37,003 nucleotides of DNA from a virus, in the IMG/VR virus record IMGVR_UViG_3300047498_000021, positions 1-37,003 of that record. The stretch is one strand, 5' to 3'. A program made the translations under genes and the position numbers. Positions 1 to 37,003 of the stretch are shown here, piece by piece (within the stretch, counting starts at the first letter, position 1; each line of letters begins with the position of its first letter). The notes under the pieces were generated by a model that was not told the DNA's origin, searched no databases, and saw only the letters and a list, made by a program, of their open reading frames with translations.

Positions 1-58
1 GCAGATGCATGCGCGCAAGCGTGTCAGTGATCTGTTGACGTTGTTCCATAGTTAGCAT
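1..58 (-). CDS. Second copy of Ala/Ser-repeat protein, N-terminal fragment
   Basis: Only the start of the gene is present; it runs off the left edge. It is identical over its visible length to the first residues (MLTMEQRQQITD and on) of the gene at 34377-35063. The AGGAG ribosome binding site lies 9 bases before the ATG at 58; an in-frame ATG at 64 is also possible but only 3 bases from the same site. It follows the ERF gene and a small gene on the same strand, so in a circular genome it continues across the contig junction into the membrane-protein gene at 36848-37003. Function is unknown. Confidence 0.6.
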   Translation of the reverse strand, partial: MLTMEQRQQITDTLARMHL

Positions 59-127
59 GTTCATTTTCTCCTTTTGCTGAGTCTTAGCCCGCGTCATCGC
101 TCAACGCCTCCGACGCACTAGACGCCG
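1..127. repeat. Direct repeat identical to 35006-35132 (edge of a collapsed duplication)
   Basis: All 127 bases match 35006-35132 exactly; the two sequences part at 128 versus 35133. On the minus strand the repeat carries the ribosome binding site and the first codons of the Ala/Ser-repeat protein gene, plus the tail end of whatever lies upstream. A match of exactly 127 bases at a contig end is what a de Bruijn assembler with k=127 leaves at a repeat branch, so this is probably the right edge of a second copy of the 34260-35132 block. The identity is seen directly; the assembly explanation is inferred. Confidence 0.9.
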
Positions 128-288: not shown

Positions 289-906
289 TTATTTCCGGGG
301 GTCCTGCGCGTCACGGATAGTGTTCTTCACGTCGGAAGGCAGCGTGCGCCAGACCGAGGACGCGACTTCTTCCGACGAATCCTTCAATTCGGAGAGGATA
401 TCGACCGCCGCCGACACTTTGCCGGCTTCGATGGCCGCGATGATCCGCTTCGACTGCTCGTTGATCGCCTTGGTCTCCTTGCCACCTCGAGTGTTGTAGG
501 GGTCGCTAGGACGGCCGTGCGCACCGTCGGCGTCGTCATCCATTTGATAGACCCCTACCATGGCCGCCAGCCCGTAGCGACGCGCATAAGTGATCGCAGA
601 GCCGACAGCTTGCGGGCTCGGGTCTTTCGGATTCAGCAACTGCACCCCCTCGATCCACTGCCCGCTGCTGTGAAGCAGGCGCGTGACCAATGCCTCGGAG
701 ACGGTTCCATCGAGGTGCGCGACGTACTGAGCGACACTGAGCCCGTTATCCGTGAGGGCGTTGCGGCAGGCGTCCCAGACGCTCTGCAGGTCCGCGTACT
801 TCGATTTGAAGAACGGGTTGGCCGAGTCCTTTTTGGCCCCTTCCATCTGGCTCTGCGCCTTCGCCAGAGCAGTCGCCAGTTCGTTGATCTGTTCGCTCGT
901 ATTCAT
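289..906 (-). CDS. erf: ERF-family single-strand DNA annealing protein
   Basis: A 205-residue protein of the ERF superfamily, the recombinases typified by P22 Erf. These bind single-stranded DNA and anneal complementary strands, often to circularise or repair phage DNA. Family marks are the N-terminal helix with FFKSKYADLQSVWDACRNAL (residues 33-52) and the conserved SAITYARRYGLAAMVGV (103-119), followed by the acidic MDDDADG. The C-terminal 70 residues are variable and helical. ATG at 906 overlaps the stop of the preceding small gene (ATGA), and an AAGGA-type site lies upstream. It belongs to the leftward early operon. It fits a phage that keeps internal direct repeats and lacks an integrase. 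Confidence 0.93.
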   Translation of the reverse strand: MNTSEQINELATALAKAQSQMEGAKKDSANPFFKSKYADLQSVWDACRNALTDNGLSVAQYVAHLDGTVSEALVTRLLHSSGQWIEGVQLLNPKDPSPQAVGSAITYARRYGLAAMVGVYQMDDDADGAHGRPSDPYNTRGGKETKAINEQSKRIIAAIEAGKVSAAVDILSELKDSSEEVASSVWRTLPSDVKNTIRDAQDPRK

Positions 907-1515: not shown

Positions 1516-1601
1516 GGTCGGCTCCCGTTTGAAGGTGGGAGTATGAAATCACACCGCTATAGCATTTGCAATGGTTATTTTTGTGTGGTTTACTAAGCCC
1601 C
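1516..1601. promoter_or_regulatory. Divergent control region between regulator and leftward operon
   Basis: This 86-bp gap separates the start of the leftward operon from the XRE regulator. It is the AT-richest stretch nearby. The palindromic hexamer TTGCAA at 1566-1571 could serve as a -35 box in either direction. Rightward, a weak TTTACT at 1589-1594 follows at 17 bp, which would start RNA almost at the regulator's ATG. An inverted pair AATCACAC (1547-1554) and GTGTGGTT (1583-1590), with one mismatch, flanks the centre and could be operator half-sites. All box assignments are by eye. Confidence 0.5.
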
Positions 1602-1781
1602 ATGAAGAAGCTTGCGAAACTGAGACGCGCGAAGGGTCTCTCTCAGACCGCTCTGGCTGCGATGCTGCGAACCAGTCAATCCAACGTCTGCAATTGGGAA
1701 TGGGGCAAGACCAAGCCTCGACCCAACACCGTGACGCGCATCGCGGCGGCGTTGGGGTGTACGGAGAAAGAGCTGTCGTGA
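1602..1781 (+). CDS. XRE/Cro-family transcriptional regulator
   Basis: A 59-residue protein that is almost entirely a helix-turn-helix domain of the Cro/CI type: LRRAKGLSQTALAAMLRTS (residues 8-26), then QSNVCNWEWGKTKPRPNTV, the usual recognition helix and the W-E-x-G-x-x-x-P turn. It has no peptidase or oligomerisation domain, so it is closer to Cro than to LexA-like CI. ATG at 1602 is chosen because the HTH begins there; 12 residues could be added from an ATG at 1566. No ribosome binding site is visible, and a possible promoter would give a leaderless message. It faces the early operon divergently, so it probably controls the early switch. Confidence 0.88.
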   Translation: MKKLAKLRRAKGLSQTALAAMLRTSQSNVCNWEWGKTKPRPNTVTRIAAALGCTEKELS

Positions 1782-29763: not shown

Positions 29764-31098
29764 GTGCGTATCGCGTTCTGCACGACCTGCCGAGGGCGCG
29801 CTCCGCACCTAAAAGAAACCCTACCCCGTAACCTCGCGGACAACGCAGACGGGGTGTTCATCGTGCTCGACTACGGCAGCACCGATGACCTGATCCCGTA
29901 CCTCAAAGCCTACCACGCCCGAGACATCGCCTCCGGGCGGCTCGTGGTCTACCAGCATCCGGCCAAGAAGTGGCACATCAGCCACGCCAAGAACATGGCC
30001 GCTCGGTGCGGGCTCCGGGAAGGGGCCGATGTCCTCGTCACGCTCGACGCCGATAACTTCACCGGCCCCGGCTTCTCGGACTTCCTACGACAGTCCTTCG
30101 CCGAACCTGGAGTGCGCCCTGGCATTTTCCTGTGCCCCGACTACGCCTACATCAAGAGCCTTCCCCACGGCCCCGGACGGCCACAGAGAGGCTATGCCGG
30201 ACGTCTAGCCGTATGGGCCTCGACCTTTGTCAAGATGGGCGGCTATGACGAGGCGTTCTCAGAGTGGGGGCGCGAGGACATCTGCATGAACTTCCGGCTC
30301 CAGCGGGCCGGCTACACGATGCGGCATATCCCGAACCACTACCTGAACGCCATCCCTCACGGGGCCGATGTGCGGTTCAAGGAATACCCCCAAGCCCAAG
30401 CCAACGAGACCTTTAAGGTCGTGGAGGAGTTGAAATCGAGAACCGAGACCGTCGTCAACTTCGGCCGCTGGGGGTGCGGGACCGTCACCCGGAACTTCGA
30501 TCCGACGCCTATTTCCTTGGACCCGCTGCCCACGCGAATCTTCGGCATCGGCTTTCAAAAGACGGCCACCACGTCTCTGGCCAAAGCCCTCGCGATCCTG
30601 GGGTACGACAGCTTCCATTGGGGGGAGGGGGAAGCACCCCTCATCTGGTACGAGATGCAGGGGCTGGGGCGCTCCAAAACGCTCGAGCAATGGTATGCCC
30701 TGTGCGATAACCCGATCCCGGCCGTGTACCGCGAGCTCGACCAGGCGTATCCGGGGTCCAAGTTCATCTTGACCGTCCGGGATGAATGTGACTGGCTCCG
30801 CTCCTGTCGAGACCTCTGGGACTACGCGAAGAACCCCACCCGACGCCTGTGGGACATCTACCCCTTCAGCCACGTCATTCACACGGCCCTTTACGGCCAG
30901 CGGGAATTCGATCCCCTCGTGATGCTCGCACGCTACCGGCGGCACAACGCGGAAGTGATCGAGTACTTCAAGGGCCGCGAGGATCTACTCGTGCTGCGTC
31001 AGCCCGCGTGGGGGCCGCTGTGTGGATTCCTCGGGCTTGCCGTTCCGCAGATCGCCTACCCGGTATTGAACCGGGTCCGCGAGGACCCTTGCACTTGA
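29764..31098 (+). CDS. Glycosyltransferase-sulfotransferase fusion protein
   Basis: A 444-residue two-domain protein from the GTG at 29764. Residues 1-250 look like a GT-A glycosyltransferase: an N-terminal strand (RIAFCTTCRGRAP), LVTLDADNFTGPG with the DxD at 95-97, and the acceptor-side motif EAFSEWGREDICMNFRLQRAG (164-184). Residues 257-444 resemble a sulfotransferase: TRIFGIGFQKTATTSLAKAL, whose GFQKTATT (263-270) matches the 5'-phosphosulfate loop, and SKFILTVRDECDWLRSC for the 3'-phosphate site. It may add and sulfate a sugar, perhaps on surface glycans or phage proteins. No signal peptide. Confidence 0.82.
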   Translation: MRIAFCTTCRGRAPHLKETLPRNLADNADGVFIVLDYGSTDDLIPYLKAYHARDIASGRLVVYQHPAKKWHISHAKNMAARCGLREGADVLVTLDADNFTGPGFSDFLRQSFAEPGVRPGIFLCPDYAYIKSLPHGPGRPQRGYAGRLAVWASTFVKMGGYDEAFSEWGREDICMNFRLQRAGYTMRHIPNHYLNAIPHGADVRFKEYPQAQANETFKVVEELKSRTETVVNFGRWGCGTVTRNFDPTPISLDPLPTRIFGIGFQKTATTSLAKALAILGYDSFHWGEGEAPLIWYEMQGLGRSKTLEQWYALCDNPIPAVYRELDQAYPGSKFILTVRDECDWLRSCRDLWDYAKNPTRRLWDIYPFSHVIHTALYGQREFDPLVMLARYRRHNAEVIEYFKGREDLLVLRQPAWGPLCGFLGLAVPQIAYPVLNRVREDPCT

Positions 31099-31494: not shown

Positions 31495-32202
31495 TCAGGC
31501 CGCCGCCAGTAGTTTGAGAAGCTGGCTGGCCATGCGGGTGTAGGCAGCGCTCGCCGCGCTCGCCGCGCTCCACTCCGCGCTCCACTCCGCGCTCCTCGCC
31601 GCGCTCCACTCCGCGCTCTCCGCGCTCAACGCGCACGCCGCCGCGCTCGCCGCGCTCCACGCCGCGCTCCTCGCCGCGCTCCACTCCGCGCTCTCCGCGC
31701 TCGCCGCGCTCCTCGCGCTCTCCGCCGCGCTCTCCGCGCTCTCCGCCGCGCTCCTCGCCGCGCTCTCCGCCGCTTGGATATCTACAAGCTCCCCCTTCGT
31801 CAGCGGCACCAGCACGTCCGCGCATTGCCGCACGACATCGCGCACGAGCGGGTGCTCCCGCCCGGCCAGTTCTTCCGTCAGCAGCCAGTGCAGGAATTTC
31901 CACTGCACCCTCGACAAATCCACGCCCACGGGAATTACGCTGAGCCATTCGACTGCGAATCGCTTGCTCTTGTCGTTGGGCAGCCCCTCAAACAGCCGAT
32001 CGACCAATCGGCAAATTGCGAGCGGCACGCCGAGCACGTCCGCTAGCTTGGCGTGGTCGGACCCGTGAATCAGGCAGCCGATCGCGCAGCCCTTGCCGTT
32101 CTCCCAGTATTCTCCGTGGATGAGCTCGTCCGCGTCGGCGTGTGACTGGATGCGGGCGACGTAGGTATTTTTGATGGCGGCGTCATTGTGAAATGCGGGC
32201 AT
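31495..32202 (-). CDS. Phage protein with Ala/Ser/Trp repeat tail (235 aa)
   Basis: ATG at 32202; upstream in-frame extension lies inside the previous gene and is rejected. Residues 1-145 are a compact globular domain (NGKGCAIGCLIHGSDHAKLA, RLFEGLPNDKSKRFAVEWL, VQWKFLHWLLTEELAG) that belongs to a family I recognise only as common among phages and prophages, without known function. Residues 146-225 are nearly all Ala, Ser, Glu, Arg and Trp in 3- and 4-residue steps (SAAE, SAEW, SAAR). The C-terminus (TRMASQLLKLLAAA) is amphipathic. Last gene of the leftward operon. Confidence 0.78.
   Translation of the reverse strand: MPAFHNDAAIKNTYVARIQSHADADELIHGEYWENGKGCAIGCLIHGSDHAKLADVLGVPLAICRLVDRLFEGLPNDKSKRFAVEWLSVIPVGVDLSRVQWKFLHWLLTEELAGREHPLVRDVVRQCADVLVPLTKGELVDIQAAESAARSAAESAESAAESARSAASAESAEWSAARSAAWSAASAAACALSAESAEWSAARSAEWSAEWSAASAASAAYTRMASQLLKLLAAA
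31543..31783 (-). repeat. Short-period coding repeat (9/12 bp)
   Basis: Built from GCGCTC-type units at 9- or 12-bp steps (CCGCGCTCCACT, CCGCGCTCGC...), coding SA-x and SA-x-x steps. A 48-bp block at 31611-31658 is identical to 34454-34501 in the second repeat gene, which shows exchange or duplication between the two loci. Confidence 0.85.
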
Positions 32203-32203
32203 G

Positions 32204-32563
32204 TCAGGGGTCCTTGTTGGGGTTGAGGAATTCGTCCAGCTTCGCAATGCGATCGCCCAACCCGGTCATCGATCGGGTGCGCGCGAGCGAGTCCGGGCCG
32301 TGGCCAATGGACATCAGATCCGCCTCGAAAATTTCCATGTCCTCGCGCAGCAGGTGTTGAGCCTTGGACAACTGCGCTTCGAGCAGTTCGATGCGCTTCA
32401 ATAGCTGGCTGTTCACGGTTTCGCTGCCGCGCTTCCACTCGTCGAGTTCGGTTTTGAGCGCGGCGTAATCGGAGTAACGCACCCATGCTCCGTCTGGGGC
32501 CTGCAGCAGCCAAATACCACTCTCTCGGTGGTACCACGGGGCGTACCACTTAACCTCATTCAT
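32204..32563 (-). CDS. Hypothetical protein with coiled coil (119 aa)
   Basis: ATG at 32563 overlaps the methyltransferase stop. The N-terminal part (KWYAPWYHRESGIWLLQAPDG, WVRYSDYAALKTEL) is a short aromatic-rich unit; the middle (EWKRGSETVNSQLLKRIELLEAQLSKAQHLLRED) is coiled coil. No catalytic motif. The upstream extension of this frame to 32626 lies inside the methyltransferase and lacks support. Confidence 0.7.
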   Translation of the reverse strand: MNEVKWYAPWYHRESGIWLLQAPDGAWVRYSDYAALKTELDEWKRGSETVNSQLLKRIELLEAQLSKAQHLLREDMEIFEADLMSIGHGPDSLARTRSMTGLGDRIAKLDEFLNPNKDP

Positions 32564-33498
32564 TTCTCGAACATCCTCCCCTGCCTGAGTGTTGCCGGGA
32601 GACACGCGGGCGAGTACCAAATGCATTCGCTGTTAGTGGTTTTGCTGCCTGAGTAGGTCAACCGGCCACGCGACCACTCCACGGCGTCCCATCCGGCCAG
32701 CTTGTAATCGTCACGGTGCCCGCATAGGGCGATCCGCAGGTGCTCGTTCTCGCGCGCCCATGTCTCTACGGCATCGGCAACCGCGCCGGCTTTGCCGTAG
32801 AGCGCCTCGTACGACCGATATGGCGGGTCCAGGAACACGGCCGTATCATCGCCGCCGAAATGATTGTTAAGGCAGCGCGACCAATCACCATGCACCACGC
32901 GGACCCGCTCAAGCCTGTCTGCGATCCGATGCAGCCACGCCCATGCTGTGCGCCCGCAGGAGGTCAGCAAGGCGTCCGCGCCCATACCGGCATTGCTCGC
33001 GTGCGGGATTTGGCCGATGGCCTGCACGCCCATACCGGCATTGCTCGCGTGCGGGATTTGGCCGAACCAGTCGCACCAGCCGGAACCGATCCAGCAGCAT
33101 TGACCCCACAGCCACCAGCCTGCGACTTTTGCATCGCCGGGCCAGGCCGGATCTTGCATTTCCGCGCCGATGCGATCTCGCTGCGCCATGAGCCATCCGT
33201 GGCGCGCGCCGAGGTCAATGTGCGATACCGGGTAATCCGCCCATTCCGCCACCGCCGCCGGTTGATGCTTGACCGCGCGCCAGAAATTAGCGATGAATCC
33301 GGAGCCGTCGCACACGACTTCAAGCGCAGCCGGGCGGGGGCACGCTAGCAAAACCGCTGCCGATCCGCAAAACGGCTCGATGTATTGCGCAGGCGATCCG
33401 AGCCGAGCCCACACATCCGCCGCAACCGTGCGCTTCCCGCCGAAGTACGGGAACGGGGACAGCAAGAGCGTCGCGTCTCCGATGTGCTTAACCCACAT
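32560..33498 (-). CDS. D12-class DNA N6-adenine methyltransferase
   Basis: A 312-residue Dam-like enzyme. Residues 16-23 are FPYFGGKR, the S-adenosylmethionine loop of this class, followed by YIEPFCGSAAVL (39-50) and catalytic FLDPPYRSY (222-230, DPPY at 224-227). It methylates adenine in duplex DNA, typically protecting phage DNA from host restriction or marking sites. An odd feature is a 16-residue tandem repeat, GQIPHASNAGMG at 146 and 162, within the target-recognition zone. Its start at 33498 precedes, by 21 bases, a small coiled-coil gene on the same strand. The specificity is not predictable. Confidence 0.93.
   Translation of the reverse strand: MWVKHIGDATLLLSPFPYFGGKRTVAADVWARLGSPAQYIEPFCGSAAVLLACPRPAALEVVCDGSGFIANFWRAVKHQPAAVAEWADYPVSHIDLGARHGWLMAQRDRIGAEMQDPAWPGDAKVAGWWLWGQCCWIGSGWCDWFGQIPHASNAGMGVQAIGQIPHASNAGMGADALLTSCGRTAWAWLHRIADRLERVRVVHGDWSRCLNNHFGGDDTAVFLDPPYRSYEALYGKAGAVADAVETWARENEHLRIALCGHRDDYKLAGWDAVEWSRGRLTYSGSKTTNSECIWYSPACLPATLRQGRMFEK
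32979..33065 (-). repeat. Two-copy 48-bp tandem repeat in methyltransferase gene
   Basis: 32979-33017 equals 33027-33065 over 39 bases with a 48-bp period, in frame, so the protein has GQIPHASNAGMG twice, 16 residues apart. The DNA identity suggests recent slippage or an in-frame duplication near the DNA-recognition region. Confidence 0.92.
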
Positions 33499-33764: not shown

Positions 33765-34259
33765 CTACTCTTCACGGCGCAACTCCTTGATCTGCCAAGC
33801 CAAGCGGCCGCACTCGCTCCGCACGTACCAAAGCGCCCGATATTGCGTGGTGGGGTCAAGCGACCAGAAGCTGTCCTCCCGCGCTCGTACGTGATCTTCC
33901 GGCGACTGATCAAAACAATGAGCGCAATCGAATCCAAACCACCATAGATGCTCGGGATCGCCGGGTGCGGGCACGTGGCAGATGGTCTCCGCTGGCGGTC
34001 CCTCCTGACAGGAATCCGCGAACGTGAGTCCGCCGTGCACGCTCGGTCCATAATCCGGCAAGTCGTCATAGCTCTTTCCGTGCCACGGGTGACTCTCGGA
34101 AACGCCAACATACCCGCACCAGTGCCCGCTTCTAGGGTGGCGCTTGGCGAGGCAGGACAGGCCAGTCGCCTTGTCCGTCCATTGCACTTTGTCCGGCTCG
34201 TGGTCCCACTCGCCGGGCGGCCACTGGCTGCGATCGCAGCGCGGATCAATCCAAGTCAT
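33765..34259 (-). CDS. Conserved phage protein of unknown function (164 aa)
   Basis: Residues have the look of a widespread phage family: HWCGYVGVSESHPWHGKSYDD, VHGGLTFADSC, ICHVPAPGDPEHLWWFGFDCAHCFD. Conserved His, Cys, Asp and Trp suggest a metal-binding or enzyme-like fold, but the function is unknown to me. The ATG at 34259 lies at the exact edge of the duplicated block (34260), so the gene is present only next to this copy and could have lost its original upstream neighbour. Confidence 0.82.
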   Translation of the reverse strand: MTWIDPRCDRSQWPPGEWDHEPDKVQWTDKATGLSCLAKRHPRSGHWCGYVGVSESHPWHGKSYDDLPDYGPSVHGGLTFADSCQEGPPAETICHVPAPGDPEHLWWFGFDCAHCFDQSPEDHVRAREDSFWSLDPTTQYRALWYVRSECGRLAWQIKELRREE

Positions 34260-34380
34260 TCAGCACGATATATTGGACCGCGATCACGAGCTGCCGGCGC
34301 ATCGTCTCGCGCGCCCAGCGCTCGGCCACGCGGCGCGCGTAGTCCCGCGAGTCGCGCGGCCGTCGGCCTGGGGCGCTCAT
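34246..34380 (-). pseudogene. Truncated copy of small membrane protein (44 aa)
   Basis: ATG at 34380 overlaps the stop of the repeat gene (ATGA). Its first 40 residues (MSAPGRRPRDSRDYARRVAE and on) are encoded identically at 36889-37003 as far as that copy is visible, but here the frame changes into NDLD and stops, while the other copy continues with MAATVAVVWMA, completing a membrane helix. The cut sits exactly at the duplication edge, so this is a copy shortened by recombination; whether it still works is unknown. Confidence 0.7.
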
Positions 34381-35063
34381 TGCGCCTCCGTGACCGCAAT
34401 CAGCCGCTCCAGCAGACCGCAGGGGTCCAGGGTGTCCCACGCCGCGCTCCACGCCGCGCTCTCCGCGCTCAACGCGCACGCCGCCGCGCTCGCCGCGCTC
34501 CTCGCCGCGCTCCACTCCGCGCTCAACGCGCACGACGCCGCGCTCCACGCCGCGCTCCTCTCCGCGCTCAACGCGCTCTCCGCCGCGCTCTCCTCCGCGA
34601 TCCACGCCACGCTCGCCGCGCTCCTCTGCGCGCTCGCCGCCGCGCTCCACGCGCTCAACGCTGATTCCGCGCTGCGCTCAACGATCATTTCCCGCCACGC
34701 ACCGCCAAAGCCGCGCGCATCCGCGAGCGGTTGCACTATCGGCAGCGCCACCGTCCACATGTGATCCATCAGAATTTGCAGCCGTTCTGGCTCATGACTG
34801 CGTCCCGTGCCGGCCGCGAGCGGCAGTAGGCTTTTCCAGCGAGTCGAATTGCGCAATGAGTCAGGCATAGAATCTTGCATCACGATGATGCAGTTCCCGA
34901 CGACCTCGGACATGCACGCTGGAATCCTGTCTGTGAGTTTACCGGTGAGCGCAAGATTGATCGCCGCGATCGAACATGCGTTTTCGGGTGTGCCGAGCCC
35001 GGACGGCAGATGCATGCGCGCAAGCGTGTCAGTGATCTGTTGACGTTGTTCCATAGTTAGCAT
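34377..35063 (-). CDS. Second Ala/Ser/Trp-repeat protein (228 aa)
   Basis: ATG at 35063 with AGGAG 9 bases upstream; a second ATG at 35069 is closer to the site and less likely. The N-terminal 130 residues are mixed (ITDTLARMHLPSGLGTPENAC, GNCIIVMQDSMPDSLRNSTRW, PLADARGFGGAWREMIVE) and differ from the domain in the 31495 gene. The next 80 residues are Ala/Ser/Glu/Trp/Arg repeats of the same kind, coded by partly identical DNA. The end is LLERLIAVTEAQ. An identical start (1-58) shows that a second gene copy exists in the genome. Confidence 0.8.
   Translation of the reverse strand: MLTMEQRQQITDTLARMHLPSGLGTPENACSIAAINLALTGKLTDRIPACMSEVVGNCIIVMQDSMPDSLRNSTRWKSLLPLAAGTGRSHEPERLQILMDHMWTVALPIVQPLADARGFGGAWREMIVERSAESALSAWSAAASAQRSAASVAWIAEESAAESALSAERSAAWSAASCALSAEWSAARSAASAAACALSAESAAWSAAWDTLDPCGLLERLIAVTEAQ
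34439..34664 (-). repeat. Short-period coding repeat, second locus
   Basis: The same GCGCTC-based 9/12-bp units as at 31543-31783, coding SAA-W/R/E steps. 34454-34501 equals 31611-31658 over 48 bp. A region like this is prone to slippage and to assembly collapse. Confidence 0.85.
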
Positions 35064-35088
35064 GTTCATTTTCTCCTTTTGCTGAGTC

Positions 35089-35280
35089 TTAGCCCGCGTC
35101 ATCGCTCAACGCCTCCGACGCACTAGACGCCGAACCTGCCGTAGTCACGGGAAAGAAAAACCTTACCCCACAACGCGGGCACCAGTAAAGCATGACGGGG
35201 TCGCCGGTCAGCGGGCTCGATTGGGGATACATCGGCTTGATGCTTGGGCGTGGCAACGTGCGATCGTGCTGGCAACTCAT
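35089..35280 (-). CDS. Small zinc-ribbon protein (63 aa)
   Basis: MSCQHDRTLP has Cys3 and His5, and YWCPRCGVRFFF has a CPRCG knuckle, together a possible one-zinc site. The Ser/Ala-rich tail (SASSASEALSDDAG) is coded inside the duplicated block, while the rest is outside it. AAGGA precedes the ATG. Function is unknown. Confidence 0.7.
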   Translation of the reverse strand: MSCQHDRTLPRPSIKPMYPQSSPLTGDPVMLYWCPRCGVRFFFPVTTAGSASSASEALSDDAG

Positions 35281-35311
35281 TCGAATTCCTTCCTCGTAGT
35301 TAGCTCAACGT

Positions 35312-35551
35312 TCAGCGATCCGCTTTGGTGCGCCGCCCGGGCCAGCGCACGACGTTCGGCGGCAACGGCCGGGGCTTCGGCAGCAGCCACAATTTCGCGG
35401 CCTGCGCGCGCGGCAGAAATCGCGTCCGCCAGCGGATGCGCTCGGCCGGCGTCATTGCGTCTGGACAGCTCCAGCCGAGCGCGCGCTTGTACGTGTACTC
35501 GGCGAGCAGCCGAGCGAGCCGCTCGCGCTCGGTCTCGCCGTGCGCGGTCAT
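35312..35551 (-). CDS. Small basic protein (79 aa), paralogue of 36084-36230
   Basis: ATG at 35551 overlaps the previous stop. The pattern ERERLARLLAEYTYKRALGW, then KLWLLPKPRPLPPNVVRWP, matches the 48-residue protein at 36084 (ERLAKLRAAWVYKRARDW, LLPKPAPLPANVVR), here with an insert of about 22 residues between the halves. These are two copies of one small phage gene. Confidence 0.72.
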   Translation of the reverse strand: MTAHGETERERLARLLAEYTYKRALGWSCPDAMTPAERIRWRTRFLPRAQAAKLWLLPKPRPLPPNVVRWPGRRTKADR

Positions 35552-35814
35552 GGCACCCGCCTCAATTCGCAACCCGTGCAATCCATGGGCTTCCCGACCC
35601 GGAGCGCGGCAACCAACCCCCAGCACAGCAATAGTGCATCGACGTGTTCCCGAAGTGTCTGATACCCGCAGCACGTCGGGATCGCAGCGGCGTATCGCGC
35701 CTCGAAATCATCGGTGTGCCCATCCGGTATCTCGCCGTCGCAGACTTTGCAGCACCAGTGCTTGTCGAGAAAGTGGCCGTTTCGGTCGTCGCTCGGCTTA
35801 GGTTCGTTATTCAT
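35548..35814 (-). CDS. Cys-rich small protein (88 aa)
   Basis: Cysteines fall in HWCCKVCDG (about 19-27), TCCGYQ (47-52), and DCTGCE near the end, with an amphipathic helix (REHVDALLLCWGLVAALRVG). This suggests a zinc-binding fold. The ATG overlaps the end of the upstream gene by 8 bases and its stop overlaps the next ATG. Function is unknown. Confidence 0.68.
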   Translation of the reverse strand: MNNEPKPSDDRNGHFLDKHWCCKVCDGEIPDGHTDDFEARYAAAIPTCCGYQTLREHVDALLLCWGLVAALRVGKPMDCTGCELRRVP

Positions 35815-36061
35815 AGCGGCCCTCGTTCATTGCTAGGTCCTCGGGGATAACCAGTCGATGTTTGCGGTATTTCCAGTGACGCAGTGTGTTGTAAATCGGG
35901 AAACTTAGCGCAAACGACCCGGCTAACCCAGATCGCAAACCGAACGTGCGAATGTTCCCTTTCCAGTATCGCCATTGACCCCAATCTACCAATCTAAAAT
36001 GCCAAAGCGCCGCTCGCCAAGGCTGAGTCGTTCTTTCATCGCAAATTAAACAGCGGTTCAT
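35807..36061 (-). CDS. Hypothetical Trp-rich basic protein (84 aa)
   Basis: ATG at 36061 has AAGGAG upstream (5-base spacing after AAGCC), preferred over the longer upstream frame. MNRCLICDE offers a CxxC at the N-terminus, then WRAALWHFRLVDWGQWRYWKG is strongly aromatic and basic, and SGLAGSFALSFPIYNTL may touch the membrane. No family is recognised. Confidence 0.68.
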   Translation of the reverse strand: MNRCLICDERTTQPWRAALWHFRLVDWGQWRYWKGNIRTFGLRSGLAGSFALSFPIYNTLRHWKYRKHRLVIPEDLAMNEGRYE

Positions 36062-36083
36062 GGCTTCTCCTTCATGTCCGTGC

Positions 36084-36230
36084 TCATCGCCGCCGCAGCC
36101 TAACCACGTTCGCGGGCAACGGCGCAGGCTTCGGCAAGAGCCAATCGCGGGCGCGCTTGTAAACCCACGCCGCGCGCAGTTTCGCGAGGCGCTCGGCATG
36201 GGTGTCATCCGGGTGGACATCAAGATTCAC
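36084..36230 (-). CDS. Small basic protein (48 aa), shorter paralogue
   Basis: GTG at 36230 overlaps the previous stop (GTGA). The sequence (HAERLAKLRAAWVYKRARDW, LLPKPAPLPANVVRLRRR) is the compact version of the 35312 protein, missing its middle insert. A basic end suggests nucleic-acid or anionic-partner binding, unproven. Confidence 0.68.
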   Translation of the reverse strand: MNLDVHPDDTHAERLAKLRAAWVYKRARDWLLPKPAPLPANVVRLRRR

Positions 36231-36421
36231 TGCAATTCTCCTTGCCCGAGTTCCGCGCGCTGCCCGGCCGCGATCCCGGACTGCATCGCGTTCAACGCCC
36301 CGAGCGTGTACGCCACCGACAGCGCCGCCACGATCCGCGAGGCGGAAATCATCGGGCTTGATAGCAGATCGCTCGCGAGCCGCGACAACGCCTGCTCGGC
36401 GTTCCACTCAAAACCGTTCAA
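36227..36421 (-). CDS. Small helical protein (64 aa), paralogue of 1034-1228
   Basis: A TTG start at 36421 overlaps the previous stop (TTGA); no ATG fits. RIVAALSVAYTLGALNAM (about 29-46) resembles RAALALAYTHGCVDTI in the 1034 protein. Both are short, mostly helical, in the same operon. No motif identifies a function. Confidence 0.65.
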   Translation of the reverse strand: MNGFEWNAEQALSRLASDLLSSPMISASRIVAALSVAYTLGALNAMQSGIAAGQRAELGQGELQ

Positions 36422-36705
36422 GAGTTCGATTCCGGCACGAGGGCGTCGAGCGACTTCCGGGCCTCGCCGAGGCGAGCCCGAGCACCCTCAACATAGCGCT
36501 TAAGCGCCTGTTCTTCCCGATCCAAAGCCGAGAACGCGTCTTGGGGTTCGACGGCCCTCGGCACAAAGTCCGCCTCGACATACTGCGAGATCCGGATATA
36601 GCCGGAGTCCTCGAGGTAGTGCGCGCTTTCCTCTTTCATTATAACGCCGTACTCGAGGGCCGGGTAATTCGAGTCGCACACGCGCTGGAAAATGGCTATT
36701 CGCAT
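36418..36705 (-). CDS. Hypothetical protein (95 aa)
   Basis: The first half is alpha/beta (MRIAIFQRVCDSNYPALEYG, YIRISQYVEADFVPR) and the second half is a coiled coil (REEQALKRYVEGARARLGEA). The ATG at 36705 lies inside the end of the preceding small membrane gene. No family recognised. Confidence 0.72.
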   Translation of the reverse strand: MRIAIFQRVCDSNYPALEYGVIMKEESAHYLEDSGYIRISQYVEADFVPRAVEPQDAFSALDREEQALKRYVEGARARLGEARKSLDALVPESNS

Positions 36706-36851
36706 GGATCGTCCTTTCCGTAGTTAGGTGGCGGCGGCAACGATCGTCGATATCGTGACCGCCACAGGTCGAGACACAGATCAATCGTGACGTCGATCAG
36801 GATCGCGGCCACGATTGTCGCTAACAACAATTTCAGCGCGCTCGCGCTCAT
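36696..36851 (-). CDS. Small single-span membrane protein (51 aa)
   Basis: ATG at 36851 overlaps the stop of the preceding gene (ATGA). A hydrophobic helix (ALKLLLATIVAAILIDVTI, residues 5-23) is followed by a basic, Pro-rich tail (WRSRYRRSLPPPPNYGKDD). It forms a pair with the next-door membrane gene. It overlaps the following gene by 10 bases. The pair may be an envelope-acting set, but no family is known. Confidence 0.65.
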   Translation of the reverse strand: MSASALKLLLATIVAAILIDVTIDLCLDLWRSRYRRSLPPPPNYGKDDPCE

Positions 36852-37003
36852 GCCATCCACACGACGGCCACGGTCGCCGCCATGACAATCAGCACGATAT
36901 ATTGGACCGCGATCACGAGCTGCCGGCGCATCGTCTCGCGCGCCCAGCGCTCGGCCACGCGGCGCGCGTAGTCCCGCGAGTCGCGCGGCCGTCGGCCTGG
37001 GGC
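36848..37003 (-). CDS. Small membrane protein, intact copy (53 aa, start beyond window)
   Basis: The first visible codon is residue 3; the first two codons lie just past the right edge if the duplicate of 34380 holds. An Arg-rich N-terminus (RRPRDSRDYARRVAERWARE) leads into a hydrophobic C-terminal helix (LVIAVQYIVLIVMAATVAVV, about 31-50). The copy at 34246-34380 lacks the end of this helix. The stop overlaps the next ATG. Upstream would lie the second repeat-protein gene, whose start is at 58. Confidence 0.68.
   Translation of the reverse strand, partial: APGRRPRDSRDYARRVAERWARETMRRQLVIAVQYIVLIVMAATVAVVWMA
36889..37003. repeat. Direct repeat identical to 34260-34374 (other edge of duplication)
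   Basis: All 115 bases match, starting at TCAGCACGATATATTGG; upstream the two diverge at once. This is the left edge of the second copy of the duplicated block, and continues off the window end. Confidence 0.9.

Follow-up and report, generated by a model that had tools for sequence, protein, structure and literature searches.

The evidence indicates that the two ends of the window, the whole stretch of 37,003 bases analysed here, most probably meet through a second copy (R2) of a repeat-containing gene, R, whose complete copy (R1) lies inside it. The window is an entire IMG/VR record, classed as linear, and would represent one nearly complete circular map of approximately 37.6 kb whose assembly stopped at R2. 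Reading leftward, Erf would be followed by R2, fused to a small gene (b); next would come a 1.76-kb cluster of small genes, then R1, whose b is truncated, and lastly the remainder of the operon. Short-read assembly presumably failed to cross R2, leaving a contig that both starts and ends inside it. The observations behind this reading are exact repeats, a fusion of R to b and the gene order in a relative, G001. A preliminary description of the same DNA, which had joined the ends through a second copy of the block, is correct in substance and over-exact in detail.

The phage and its end repeats

The window belongs to a tailed phage that encodes Erf and has a P22-like terminase. Between about 4.7 and 28 kb, the plus strand encodes the portal, terminase, scaffold, major head, connector, DNA ejection and tail proteins. 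The leftward operon runs from the Erf gene (906-289) off the left end and resumes at the right end, continuing down to 31495, and is divergent from a helix-turn-helix (HTH) regulator (1566-1781, plus strand). Erf, a single-strand annealing protein (289-906, minus strand; PF04404, E = 5.6e-25; phrog_2324), is encoded upstream of R2 in this operon. The terminase is nearest to those of Rhizobium phages (57%), e.g. RHph_N2, and is ~48% identical to those of P22-like Salmonella phages; this fits headful packaging, the mode suggested by the terminase type, and a circular map. A glycosyltransferase-like gene with a further domain (29764-31098) is 67% identical in a structural relative, G004, and the adenine methyltransferase gene contains a 39-bp direct repeat (32979-33017 and 33027-33065, starts 48 bp apart) that doubles part of the protein (GQIPHASNAGMG).

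Comparison within the window revealed that both contig ends duplicate parts of one internal repeat. Bases 1-127 are identical to 35006-35132 (127 bases) and bases 36889-37003 to 34260-34374 (115 bases); both matches are exact, direct and maximal, as the preliminary description had recorded. They coincide with the two ends of R1 (34260-35132, minus strand), a block of 873 bp that occurs in full only once in the record. Other repeats in the window reach at most 48 bp, within alanine-rich arrays, which excludes chance as the source of the end matches. Between R1 and R2 is a segment of small genes (35133-36888, 1756 bp, minus strand), the order of which is shared with G001. A terminal repeat of virion DNA was considered and rejected, as four distinct sequences flank R.

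The R gene (34377-35102, minus strand) is an open reading frame of 241 codons, comprising a conserved head that is 97% identical in G001, an alanine-rich array of SAAW-type repeats and a short tail, and belongs to a family of 10 sequences. Tandem Repeats Finder placed the imperfect array at 34437-34661 (minus strand), with a period of ~12 bp. At the left end of the window (1-127, minus strand), R2 begins with the first 32 codons of R and the bases upstream of them, in a frame (2-97) that is open at the contig end. At the right end (36889-37003, minus strand), a 33-bp R tail is fused to b. Translations and alignment placed the b start of R1 at 34260-34380 (minus strand); this b breaks off after ~40 codons, precisely where the gene at 33765-34259 has its start codon. 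At the right end, b (frame APGRRPRDSRDY...AVVWMA*) is complete but for the first two codons, and the start of the small gene that follows overlaps its stop. Two end-truncated genes had been proposed previously and both exist: the left one is R, and the right one is this b frame, not the long open reading frame at 36696-37001.

A second, related alanine-rich array (31547-31773, minus strand; Tandem Repeats Finder) is found in the gene at 31495-32247. Its head is unlike that of R but the array is of the same kind and has at most 48 exact bp in common with R1, and sequence exchange between the two arrays is possible. The architecture had suggested that the two heads are homologous; hhalign aligned only 18 columns, leaving homology unproven.

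Comparison with the relative G001

What G001 (IMG/VR, 32,320 bp) has in common with the window is limited to part of the leftward operon. Its single R gene lies at the place of R1, and the operon genes, R, the segment after it and b are in the same order as in the window on one contig. After R, the G001 sequence equals that of the window for 34 bp from the b start codon and then diverges. The 33-bp sequence that ends the window is present in G001 solely right after the R gene; G001's own b is without it and differs in its N-terminus. There is no R2 in G001, where a different gene precedes b, and no other record spans the joint; both points weigh against the proposed joint. Among the viral contigs searched, the R tail was found in one only, G001. 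As these ~33 bases follow R and nothing else in G001, and the start of b is different there, those at the window end are derived from R, and b at this end is fused to the last part of an R copy. This fusion supports, independently of the exact repeat, an R gene following beyond 37003. At the other end, the window starts inside R with an upstream flank (D) that is unlike the flank of R1 (C), and it is the C flank that G001 carries.

The R genes of the window and of G001 differ at several positions; the head differs by 0.95%, and the array by 16.5% plus 63 gap bases. Because the arrays diverge this fast, that of R2 may well differ from that of R1. The ~631 bp previously given for the missing middle is thus sound as an estimate but not as an exact figure: a single R2 would fill a gap of ~630 bp, with an uncertainty of at least tens of bases. 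The circular total of ~37.6 kb proposed with it is likewise a probable estimate, and it fits the genome size of the relatives (38-40 kb).

A larger gap, holding two or more R-like copies or additional genes between 37003 and 1, is improbable. R2 is visible for 242 bases only, and one family member (L059) holds two tandem R-family genes, but the fragments fit a single copy, as does the genome size of the relatives. That tandem pair also makes the R2 joint itself plausible, since it shows that such duplications occur. We consider it highly improbable that 35133-36888 and R form a separate circle, or a recombination variant in the population, misjoined into one contig. The direct repeats flanking this segment would permit loop-out, and an R entered by two paths and left by two can be resolved in two ways, but G001 has the operon genes, R, the segment and b in the same order on one contig.

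The assembly break

The right-end fusion is genetically sensible in the light of G001 and the 127- and 115-bp matches are exact, leaving scarcely any room for a linear fragment whose ends never meet, although linear is the IMG/VR class of the record. The window ends are instead most probably a commonplace assembly break where a repeat gene is duplicated. In COBRA simulations, contigs that metaSPAdes and MEGAHIT break at a repeat still overlap by maxK at their ends (PMC10914622). On the left, the 127 overlapping bases would be the k-mer of the presumed assembler, and the right end would have halted 115 bases into R2. The k-mer interpretation, already offered in the preliminary description, is backed by these published rules and by another contig (G008), which has an exact 127-bp prefix and suffix match. 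The structural relative G004 (39,794 bp) is broken in the corresponding part: Erf is followed by an alanine-rich repeat gene where the contig ends, while the other end begins within an alanine-rich array, in a frame leading into a DUF6745-containing product. The head of this gene, however, is unlike that of R. Together with the G001 junctions and the conserved order around R1, this break in a repeat gene downstream of Erf makes it probable that a second copy of the block joins the window ends.

The preliminary description had envisaged the plain collapse of two identical copies, with R2 equal to R1 across all 873 bp and a genome of 37,634 bp. This is a special case of the second-copy explanation, and all 242 visible R2 bases do match R1, despite the differences of the R gene from G001. 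In a small graph calculation with k = 127, an identical R2 gave an overlap of 127 bases at each of the four flanks, with the 873-bp block as a unitig of its own. Observed instead were a contig that crosses R1 but not R2 and overlaps of 127 (left) and 115 (right). The 115-base end is absent from the prediction, although paired reads may resolve the repeat; as 115 is smaller than k, a merge with R1 at k = 127 does not account for the right end, which is rather a dead or trimmed end. A variant could accommodate this: mate pairs would have led the assembler across R1, and the shortening of the right end would be accidental. Given the break expected at R1, the 127 bases expected at both ends and the speed at which the array diverges, exact identity is unlikely. 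A second copy whose middle is somewhat different from that of R1 is preferred; a differing array may help to explain why R1 was crossed, insofar as the assembler is the one presumed.

The record, filed as a linear fragment, would accordingly become a nearly complete genome.

The R-gene family and comparison with known systems

The R-gene family, defined in the present analysis as a head plus an alanine-rich array, comprises ten cases: nine viral contigs with the R head motif and Synechococcus phage S-H1 (34377-35102 of the window, L051, L053-L059 and, for S-H1, L050). Members have a conserved head (NACSIAAINLALTG), a variable alanine-rich array and a short tail. More than 60 columns are invariant among the heads, and the window R gene carries the invariant motif NACSIAAINLAL..LT..IP.CMS. 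In the partial loci available, the phages have no detectable structural genes in common, except for a distant portal in L055. Between the tandem genes of L059 (393-1836), the heads differ by 13% and the arrays by 22%.

An exact 30-mer of the window R start had no match in the viral contigs, the R motif was not found in the bacterial genomes searched, and the head had no sequence match in Pfam, PHROG, NCBIfam or PDB. A literature search for alanine-rich phage repeats found no papers. The AlphaFold model of R is all-helical but poor (pLDDT 57.5), and a PDB search with it gave nothing significant.

In four of the ten members (L054, L055, L057 and S-H1) the record breaks off within the array or immediately ahead of it, compared with 0.27 expected under a uniform-break model (P ~6e-5, a figure that is indicative, as the 450-bp interval was chosen after the data were seen). 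L055 and L057 were rejected as circles broken in R, since their other ends are without the rest of the array; they are fragments. The R family is a point where viral assemblies repeatedly stop, and some phage genomes, whether listed as partial or, like S-H1, as complete, may be cut at an R-family gene. Tentatively, R genes could be an undescribed phage family with conserved heads and hypervariable arrays, within-genome duplication and exchange between copies, perhaps via the phage's own Erf, that systematically breaks viral assemblies.

S-H1 (MK105819) is an otherwise unrelated phage. Its start encodes an R-family head with ~70% identity across 63 residues; the record stops short of the array, and the remainder of the gene is missing from the other end. 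It was deposited as a complete genome and begins within an R-family gene (L050:1-250), and this end may be an assembly break. The window resembles breaks that follow the COBRA rules (PMC10914622) in its left overlap of exactly 127, a usual largest metaSPAdes k, but differs in its right overlap of 115 and in that the other copy, R1, was assembled through. With the circular, terminally redundant maps of P22-like headful phages it shares a related terminase and an Erf-type annealing protein; the overlap in the window, by contrast, is a repeat gene and not a terminal redundancy.
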